Of a DNA stretch of 38,665 nucleotides, positions 9,086 to 12,071 are shown in pieces (position 1 is the stretch's first letter; each line of letters opens with the position of its first letter). A program made the translations under genes and the position numbers. The DNA is from Coriobacteriia bacterium (GTDB lineage: Bacteria > Actinomycetota > Coriobacteriia > Anaerosomatales > SLCP01), in the NCBI GenBank assembly GCA_007121015.1, contig SKMN01000067.1:1-38665 (forward strand), in the 5' to 3' direction. The notes under the pieces were generated by a model that saw nothing but the letters and a program-made list of their open reading frames with translations, had not been told where the DNA came from and did not search any database.

Positions 9086-9478
9086 ATGAGCAGACGTTCA
9101 GATGACATGCCCCCGCCTCGGTGCGCAGGGGACGAGTGTAGCGTCGAGAGTATCGACGCCGCTGCGGTGGGCCGTGCTGCGGCGGTCGTGCCCGACGACG
9201 TGCGCCTCAAGACGATGTCCGACATCTTCTCCGCACTCGCCGATCCGACCCGTTTGCGCATCCTCACCGCGCTCACCGCGGGCGAGTTGTGTGTCTGCGA
9301 TCTTGCCGAGGTGACCGGCGTGAGCGCCTCGGCCGTGAGTCACCAGCTCCGCGTCTTGCGCGACCGTGACCTCGTGACGTTCACGCGGGTGGGCCGCCAG
9401 GCGATCTACCGGCTCTCCGACGAGCACGTCGCCTCCCTCCTCGAGCAGGGATCCGAGCACGCCGGGGAGCACCGATGA
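9086..9478 (+). CDS. ArsR/SmtB/CadC-family metal-responsive repressor
   Basis: A winged-helix repressor that releases DNA when it binds metal. The 130-residue protein shows three kinds of metal ligand known in this family. First, N-terminal cysteines C13 and C18. Second, the alpha3 motif ELCVCD with C69 and C71; together these correspond to the CadC site for Cd/Pb/Bi. Third, a perfect alpha5 zinc site D-x-H-x10-H-x2-E (D112, H114, H125, E128) near the C-terminus. The DNA-recognition helix is in VSASAVSHQLRVLRDRDLV. Its stop overlaps the ATPase start codon (ATGA), so the pair is an operon. Cd/Zn/Pb sensing is the expected role; the actual metal is not known. Confidence 0.92.
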   Translation: MSRRSDDMPPPRCAGDECSVESIDAAAVGRAAAVVPDDVRLKTMSDIFSALADPTRLRILTALTAGELCVCDLAEVTGVSASAVSHQLRVLRDRDLVTFTRVGRQAIYRLSDEHVASLLEQGSEHAGEHR

Positions 9479-11694
9479 GCGCCGGGCCCGCACAGGCCAC
9501 CTACCGTCTCACCGGCCTCGATTGACCGGATTGCGCGCGCACCGTGAGTGCGTCGGTCGAGCAGATACCCGGCGTCATCCGCGCCGAGGTGAACTTCGCG
9601 AGCGGCGTCATGGTGCTCGACTACGATCCCGCAGCCGACCCGCGGGAGCGGGCGGTGGCCCTCGTGCGTTCGACCGGGCACGGCGTCGAACTCCTCGCCG
9701 GCGCGGGCGCACCCGCCGAGGGGCTCCGTACAACCTGGTGGGTCGAGCGCGGACACGCGGTGACGACCGCTGCGGCCGCCGTGCTCATCGTGAGTGCCTG
9801 GCTGCTCGCGCGCAGCGGCGTGGAGTGGGGTCCCTCGGCCTCCGTCGCCCTCTACGCGGCGGCGATCGTGTCGGGCGGCTGGCTCATCTTCCGCCGGGCG
9901 ATCGTGTCCGCGCGAGCCCGCTCCCTCGACATGAACGTGCTCATGACTGTCGCGGTGATCGGTGCGATGCTCATCGGCGAGTGGGCCGAGGGCGCCGCGG
10001 TCGTCTTCCTCTTCTCGGTGGGCGGCTGGCTCGAGTCGCGCTCGCTCGCGCGCACGCGCCGCTCGATCCGCGACCTCATGGACCTTTCGCCGCCGGTCGC
10101 GCGCGTGCGCGAAGCCAGCGGCATCGAGCACGAGCGCCCGGCTGCAGACGTCGAGGTGGGCCAGGTCGTGGTCGTACGCCCCGGCGAGCGCCTCGCGCTC
10201 GACGGCGAGGTCGCGCGAGGCGAATCTTCCGTCGACGAGAGTCCTATCACCGGCGAGTCCGTGCCCGCCGCCAAGGCCGCGGGCGACCACGTCTGGGCGG
10301 GCTCGCTCAACACGACCGGCGTGCTCGAGGTCCGCGTCACCGCGCGCGCCGCCGACTCGACGCTCGCGCACATCATCTACCTCGTCGAGGAAGCGCAGGC
10401 CTCCCGCGCTCCCGTCCAGCAGCTCGTCGACCGCTTCAGCTCCTACTACACGCCCGCCGTCATCGCGCTCGCGTTCCTCATCGCCACCGTCCCGCCCGCG
10501 GGCGGCGCGCTCCTCGGCGTGGAGTGGGGGACGTTCGAGACGTGGTTCTACCGGGCGCTCGTCATGCTCGTCGTCGCGTGTCCGTGCGCGCTCGTGATCT
10601 CCACCCCGGTGTCGATCGTCTCGGCGATAACGCGCGCCACCCGCGACGGCGTGCTCGTCAAGGGCGGCACGCACCTCGAGACCGCCGCGCGCGTCCGCGC
10701 CGTCGCGTTCGACAAGACCGGCACGCTCACGTGCGGCGCGCCCGAGGTCGTCGACGTACTCGCGCTCACCGGCACCGGTACCTCCGACATCCTCTCCGTC
10801 GCAGCCACGCTCGAAGCATCCTCGGCCCACCCGCTCGCCGCCGCCGTCGTGCGTGCCGCGGGAGAGGCGTCCCGCGTGCACCTCGACTGGTTCGAGGACC
10901 TTCCCGGTCGAGGCGTGTCCGGCACCGTCGACGGCGTGCTGCACTCGGTGGTGAGCCCCGCGCACGCCGAGGAGACCGGCGCGCTCGACGCCCAAGCTGC
11001 CGAGGAGATCGCTCGTCTCGAGGCCGATGGCCGCACCGTGCTCGTGTTGGTGAGCGACGGGCGGGCTGCGGGGCTCATCGGCGTGGCCGACGAGGTGCGT
11101 CCGGCCTCGCAGGCGACCGTGGCCGCGCTGCACGGCCTCGGCATGGACCACGTCGTCATGCTCACCGGCGACAACGAGCGCACCGCCGCGGCGGTTGCCG
11201 CGCGCGCGGGCGTACGCGAGTTCCTCGCGCGGCTACTGCCCGGCGACAAGGTCGACGCGGTCAGACGCCTCAAGGAGCAGTACGGCATCGTCGCGATGGT
11301 GGGTGACGGCATCAACGACGCCCCGGCGCTCGCCGCGTCCGACCTCGGCATCGCGATGGGGGCGGCGGGCAGCGACACCGCGCTGCAGACCGCAGACGTC
11401 GCACTCATGTCCGACGACCTGACCCAGGTGCCGCGCTTCCTCGACCTCGGCCGGCGGACCGTCGCCATCATCAAGCAGAACGTCGCGGTGTCGATCGGCA
11501 TCAAGGCCGCCGTGCTCGTGCTAGCGGCGACCGGGCACGCGACGCTGTGGATGGCGGTCTTCGCCGACATGGGCGTGTCGCTGATGGTGACGCTCAACGG
11601 GATGCGCCTGCTAGGCGCGCGTCCCGGTGCAGGGGCGGCCGCGCAGGGGAAGAACGAAGGAGACATCGCCGCTCCGTGCGGCGCAGACGCGTGA
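9475..11694 (+). CDS. P1B-2-type metal-exporting ATPase, probable selenoprotein (Sec17 from UGA 9523-9525)
   Basis: Predicted to export Zn2+/Cd2+/Pb2+ or similar soft metals using ATP. From the ATG at 9475 (overlapping the repressor stop) the frame reads through one in-frame TGA. Residues 14-21 are G-L-D-U-P-D-C-A, where heavy-metal-associated domains have GxDCxxCA, so the UGA replaces the first metal-binding Cys. The rest is canonical: actuator TGES (259-262), transmembrane CPC at 369-371 in CPCALVISTP (the P1B-2 CPC-x4-SxP), phosphorylated D413 in DKTGTLT, SAHPLA, GDGINDAP around 611, and D698 in the ADMG motif of the last transmembrane region. With Sec the protein is 739 residues. Without read-through, a GTG at 9544 would give 716 residues lacking the metal motif. 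Confidence 0.88.
9524..9558 (+). promoter_or_regulatory. candidate bacterial SECIS element in the ATPase mRNA
   Basis: Directly after the UGA an apical 5-bp stem, CGCAC (9538-9542) with GTGCG (9548-9552), holds the five-base loop CGTGA. The loop begins 17 bases after the UGA and has a G in its first two positions, as the bacterial SECIS consensus asks. A lower 5-bp stem, GACCG (9524-9528, including the GA of UGA) with CGGTC (9554-9558), extends the hairpin, with an asymmetric internal loop on the 5' side. SelB recognition is inferred, not shown. Confidence 0.6.
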
Positions 11695-11705: not shown

Positions 11706-12071
11706 GTGGACACTCAGCAGTTCATGCGGTTCATGGCGGCGTGGGCGCTCGTGCACGAGACCGCCGACGAGGGCTGGAAGTCAGCGGTCGAGCGCGGTCG
11801 CGCGCAGGCCGCTGGCGAGATGGCCGACGGCGGTCCCGAGGCGTTCGTCGACGGACTCTCCGCGATGATCGCCGAGGAGACCGAGCGTCTCAAGGCCGCA
11901 CTCGCCGAGGGCGGGGTGGAGGGCGCCTCGAAGGCCGAGGTCGCCGAGCGGCTCGACGAGCTCGCGTTCGAGGTCGGAGAGCTCCGCGGGCGCATCGAGA
12001 CGCTGCAGGCCTCGATCGACGCCCTCGACGCGTCGCGCGACGCGTCGCACGACTCCGTACGCGACGAGTAG
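11706..12071 (+). CDS. small coiled-coil (phasin-like) protein, function unknown
   Basis: I do not recognise a specific family. The 121-residue protein is almost entirely helical by composition. The N-terminal half has a repeated A/E pattern (FMRFMAAWALVHETADEGWK), and residues about 78-112 (EVAERLDELAFEVGELRGRI and onward) have heptad-like leucine spacing of a coiled coil. There is no signal peptide or membrane segment. The GTG at 11706 is preceded by GAGGTGGGAG. It sits 11 bases after the ATPase stop and 12 bases before an ABC1/UbiB kinase-like gene. The last pair resembles the association of small phasin-like helical proteins with UbiB-like kinases, so a partner role is a reasonable guess only. 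Confidence 0.7.
   Translation: MDTQQFMRFMAAWALVHETADEGWKSAVERGRAQAAGEMADGGPEAFVDGLSAMIAEETERLKAALAEGGVEGASKAEVAERLDELAFEVGELRGRIETLQASIDALDASRDASHDSVRDE

Follow-up and report, generated by a model that had tools for sequence, protein, structure and literature searches.

The window analysed here, a stretch of 38,665 nucleotides from a Coriobacteriia bacterium, contained 2 overlapping genes, one for a putative metal-sensing repressor and one for a putative metal-exporting ATPase with an in-frame UGA codon (Table 1). The genome to which it belongs is a 98% complete MAG of 1.94 Mb in 85 contigs, and the order, class and phylum referred to below are those containing this genome. The ATPase frame opened at an ATG that overlapped the stop codon of the repressor gene (TGA, 9476 to 9478), ran through a single internal TGA and closed at a stop codon at positions 11692 to 11694, giving a product of 739 residues, and these coordinates agree with a sequence-only reading of the same DNA, which had traced the frame through one TGA to a complete ATPase. 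Immediately downstream, on the same strand, was an open reading frame for 121 amino acids without any Pfam match (11706 to 12071), followed by an ABC1-type-kinase-like gene.

Table 1. Features of the repressor and ATPase genes, in window coordinates
Feature	Positions	Strand	Basis
ArsR/SmtB-family metal-sensing repressor	9086..9478	+	NF033788, HTH_5, motifs by eye
Shine-Dalgarno-like GGGGAG 5' of the ATPase ATG	9464..9469	+	By eye
Metal-exporting ATPase of the P1B-2 type (739 aa) with a single in-frame UGA (predicted Sec)	9475..11694	+	Frame, profile and structure matches, motifs
N-terminal HMA domain with UxxC	9499..9681	+	PF00403; 1mwy, 2aj0
UGA codon, predicted Sec 17, first metal ligand of CxxC	9523..9525	+	Comparison of loci
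SECIS-like hairpin CGCAC-CGUGA-GUGCG; loop 9543-9547, G second in loop	9538..9552	+	Comparison
GTG, table-11 start (716 aa)	9544..9546	+	Frame reading
CPC transport-site motif, transmembrane helix 6	10579..10587	+	Sequence VVACPCALVIST

The predicted protein was recognized as a complete P1B ATPase, with an HMA domain (PF00403) at residues 9 to 69. The UGA codon corresponded to residue 17, within the sequence GLDUPDCA, which bears out the claim that it stands exactly at the first cysteine of the heavy-metal-associated motif. The protein scored 585.2 bits against the heavy-metal P-type model TIGR01525 (cut-off 346.25) and 502.1 bits against TIGR01512 (cut-off 313.5), and fell under the cut-off of the copper model TIGR01511 (382 versus 397). 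The nearest solved structure by sequence was ZntA (4umv, E 3e-122), and the HMA domain matched the structures of the HMA domain of ZntA (1mwy) and of CadA (2aj0). The motifs of the P1B-2 class, CPC in transmembrane helix 6 and N-x7-K and DxG in transmembrane helix 7, were present both here and in the full-length orthologues, and together with the scores against the curated models they place the protein in this class. In all of these motifs, including the DCxxC-type motif of the HMA domain, the protein resembles the ZntA and CadA ATPases for Zn2+, Cd2+ and Pb2+, whereas the first HMA ligand is cysteine in those proteins and predicted to be selenocysteine (Sec) here. The motifs point to Zn, Cd or Pb, rather than Hg, as the probable substrates.

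The earlier reading had also paired the ATPase with its own sensor, and the gene overlapping its start was indeed assigned to the ArsR/SmtB family (NF033788, 102.7 bits versus a cut-off of 55, with an additional match to HTH_5). Inspection by eye identified CVC in helix 3 and D-x-H...H-x-x-E at the C-terminus, which we take to correspond to the helix-3 site of CadC/ArsR and to the α5 site of SmtB, respectively; this resemblance suggests that the repressor may sense Zn, Cd or Pb. Homologs of the repressor gene were located upstream of many of the orthologous ATPase genes.

We searched 398 genomes of the class for orthologs of the ATPase and found that most of those across the order contained one internal TGA. 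In total, TGA occupied the same codon in 36 loci of the order, including the window, and the other 35 loci were 53% to 72% identical to it. The codon was the first cysteine codon of GLDxPDC in 35 loci, again including the window; the 36th (L145, genome G123, contig C21) encoded a protein with 2 HMA domains, with Sec in the first and cysteine in the second. The TGA-bearing orthologs spanned several families of the order and included 6 of the 6 other orthologs in the family of the window that retained the HMA domain. Both the YRLTGLD sequence preceding the UGA and the UxxC context were conserved across the order. The alignment of homologs for which the sequence-only reading had called placed cysteine at residue 17 in 13 orthologs of the order and in 5 relatives elsewhere in the class. 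Among the 80 distant homologs, 78 covered the position, with cysteine in 73, another aligned letter in 5 and a stop codon in none, a tally that takes in one paralog from the window's own genome. Furthermore, the tree of the group to which the window belongs, here called group A, required several changes between Sec and cysteine, at least 3 of which were on well-supported branches.

Another ortholog from the same family (L230, genome G097, contig C32, near locus position 2600) appeared to lack the Sec-codon HMA domain cleanly (YRLT-ELLG...), with the pump retained. A few phylum-level matches flagged with one TGA were set aside: in G408 and G739 the aligned part contained no stop codon, in G456 and G695 the stop codon was located elsewhere, near column 70, and in G530 it was found only near the end, in none of the latter 3 at the HMA cysteine.

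A stem-loop with its loop 17 bases past the UGA had been described for the window, and comparison among the loci confirmed it. Counting the T of the UGA as position 1, the Sec sites of group A contained a full stem of 5 base pairs with the 5' arm at positions 16 to 20 in all 36 cases, and the loop, nearly always CGUG, started at position 21, that is, 17 nucleotides after the UGA. The 3' arm was located at positions 26 to 30 in 12 genes, including the window (CGCAC-CGUGA-GUGCG), and at positions 30 to 34 in 23 genes (CGGAC-9 nt-GUCCG), and likewise in L145, where the stem was intact only after the Sec-bearing HMA domain. A full stem in either register was found at none of the cysteine sites examined, a few of which retained 4 of the 5 pairs, as expected after a loss of Sec. 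The pair formed by positions 19 and 27 was A-U in some group A genes and G-C in others. Random synonymous recoding was expected to yield 2.9 of 35 stems, and the value for the window alone was 5%, in a test that is somewhat favorable to the 2 registers since these were recognized on the same sequences, and with locus counts that are not independent since the loci are related. The fold energy of the window hairpin was only slightly better than that of shuffled sequences (z = -1.1), and the evidence at the RNA level is therefore comparative. Rfam likewise gave no match within the window, so that its SECIS was judged by comparison.

A search of the genome for the Sec-decoding genes, which the sequence-only reading had called for, was successful for the proteins and not for the tRNA. 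The selD, selA and selB genes were located together on one contig (C35), and selD itself was of the Sec type, reading SSKAGUAAKW through its own in-frame TGA. The gene for tRNA-Sec (selC) was not found in the contigs of this genome with the Rfam model, with BLAST using a sister gene or with ARAGORN on the sel region; those Rfam matches in the genome that were checked proved to be tRNA-Ser, tRNA-Leu and others. In another MAG of the same genus (G133), neither tRNA-Sec nor the ATPase was found. Matches to tRNA-Sec were obtained in 56 of the 69 genomes of the order, several of them in the same family, with the reservation that the weakest matches, of about 48 to 54 bits, may be other tRNAs; 5 loci of the same family were identified by ARAGORN as tRNA-Sec with the anticodon TCA. 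In 2 relatives the tRNA-Sec gene was located directly downstream of selB, a place taken by other genes in the window's genome. The genes downstream of selB there include candidates for YedE/YeeE and for a TusA/SirA-like protein (L023, 9557 to 11022), which are often linked with selenium use. Several relatives carried the tRNA-Sec gene near a contig end; in G117 the contig stopped 4 nucleotides past the matched stretch, and in some others the gene was within about 150 nucleotides of the contig start. Because of these positions, a loss of the tRNA-Sec gene in assembly is a plausible explanation for its absence. Contig C9 encodes a small HMA protein, flagged with one TGA, that was considered as a second metal-binding selenoprotein and rejected, as its TGA is the terminal stop codon and its motif is CGSC.

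Taken together, the presence of selA, selB and selD, the exchange between TGA and cysteine codons at one residue across the order, and the association of the SECIS hairpin with the Sec state support the proposal of the sequence-only reading that a P1B ATPase has Sec within the CxxC that binds metal. We consider it very likely that the gene encodes a P1B-2 ATPase of the Zn/Cd/Pb type in which Sec serves as the first metal-binding residue of the HMA domain and that the UGA is decoded by means of the downstream hairpin. SelB and Sec-tRNA would decode the codon because the hairpin located 17 nucleotides downstream would serve as a bacterial SECIS. The ATPase would export divalent soft metals resembling Zn, Cd and Pb, probably under the control of the overlapping CadC/SmtB-like repressor. 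In ZntA, metal is bound at the N-terminal DCxxC site, which either regulates the pump or supplies it with metal; here, a selenolate and thiolate pair (D-U-x-x-C) may bind the incoming metal and act on the pump in either of these ways. A regulatory role of the site fits with the apparent loss of the HMA domain from the pump of G097. The transport site (CPC, N...K, DxG) would be an ordinary one, free of Sec. On chemical grounds, the selenolate would be expected to hold Cd, Hg or Pb more tightly, as the sequence-only reading had proposed.

Alternatively, the UGA could be a true stop codon, in which case the working protein would be a form of 716 amino acids initiated at GTG 9544, either by termination and reinitiation or following pseudogenization of the N-terminus. 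This frame, which is the product expected from a table-11 gene caller, is indeed open and would dispense with the metal-binding loop, as had been pointed out, and both the missing tRNA-Sec and the G097 pump can be read in its favor. However, the GTG is located within the SECIS loop, has no Shine-Dalgarno sequence and is replaced by GTC in an ortholog (L118). Moreover, the conservation of YRLTGLD and UxxC, the cysteine encoded at the same codon in relatives without the TGA and the hairpin found after the UGA in every case all argue against termination, and we regard it as improbable. Less probable still is a conditional use of the codon, whereby selenium would yield the full Sec-containing pump and its absence would lead to a stop at the UGA, with a shorter, unregulated pump or none, so that metal export would be coupled to the selenium supply. 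Such dependence is a general property of UGA-Sec codons, and an in-frame GTG inside a SECIS loop would suit it, but selection for a restart site is not apparent and the GTG is not universal. A sequencing error or a genome-wide reassignment of TGA to another amino acid has a negligible probability, being refuted by the TGA found at the same codon in the 35 additional loci from other genomes and by the use of TGA as a plain stop codon in both the repressor gene (9476) and the ATPase gene (11692).

With Sec as the preferred reading, the protein would join the cation-transporting ATPase E1-E2, UxxC family. The sequence-only reading had raised the possibility that such an ATPase was undescribed, which does not stand, since the family has appeared in the literature as predicted selenoproteins since 2007, up to reviews of 2022 and 2026 (PMC13188914, PMC2398784, PMC5029168, PMC9312934). 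The original prediction is attributed in later papers to Zhang and Gladyshev (2007), with ABB15669.1 (COG2217/TIGR01525) as an example. The GOS study gave 1 Sec form and 882 cysteine forms, as we read its table (PMC2398784), Peng 2016 gave the figures 25 and 32, which we read as organisms and genes (PMC5029168), and the review from 2022 mapped the family to COG2217 ZntA with UxxC (PMC9312934). No relevant paper on selenoproteins in Coriobacteriia was found in the library searched.

The window protein shares with this family, as exemplified by the description of ABB15669.1, the predicted Sec in the first position of UxxC and the cysteine in most homologs, and we found the UGA at the first cysteine codon, the SECIS hairpin and SelA, SelB and SelD. 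It was also compared with NF041115, a small separate family of UxxU metal-binding (seleno)proteins with a similar HMA-like domain and Sec metal site, of which it is not a member, as its score of 24.5 bits is below the cut-off of 95. Whereas the papers on the UxxC ATPases report few members, the ATPases described here were widespread in a single order, formed 2 paralog groups and carried a hairpin tied to Sec. Judged by these comparisons, they form a lineage that is new within an already predicted selenoprotein family, with unusually strong comparative support; new relative to the previous reports are the much stronger support for Sec insertion, the 2 paralog groups and one more Sec site, located in the second of 2 HMA domains in an ATPase from G430. 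Most of the selenoproteins studied are redox enzymes; the Sec considered here is predicted to serve as a ligand for metal in a transport protein. Since natural Sec and cysteine versions occur within one order, they would allow a clean test of what selenium contributes to metal binding and export. Standard gene callers would misannotate such genes as truncated pumps.

The second group of paralogs, group B, consisted of 12 genes (L161 to L172) with an identity of about 45% to 48%, which formed one clade with full support in the tree and contained GITULDC or GVTUMDC, with Sec in all 12. Their hairpin was conserved among them and unlike that of group A, consisting of GUUC-GAGAA-GAAC, with the loop GAGAA, inside GGCCA/UGGCC or GGCGA/UCGCC, which includes a paired change from C-G to G-C; 2 of the 12 members retained only 8 and 6 of the 9 pairs. 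It was also noted that a genome outside the class and within the same phylum encoded an ATPase with 2 HMA domains (L223, G430, C15:16800-20400), the first containing GLDCPDC and the second GLD-TGA-PDC. Sec may have been taken up more than once at the same metal ligand, by group A, by group B and by the G430 ATPase (second HMA domain), with repeated switching to and from cysteine and 2 SECIS registers within group A, a scenario to which we give an even chance. If true, the HMA domains of metal-efflux pumps would be a recurrent site for selenium, selected for metal binding rather than for redox catalysis. As for the surroundings of the group B genes, an ArsR-like gene was located divergently to several of these ATPase genes.
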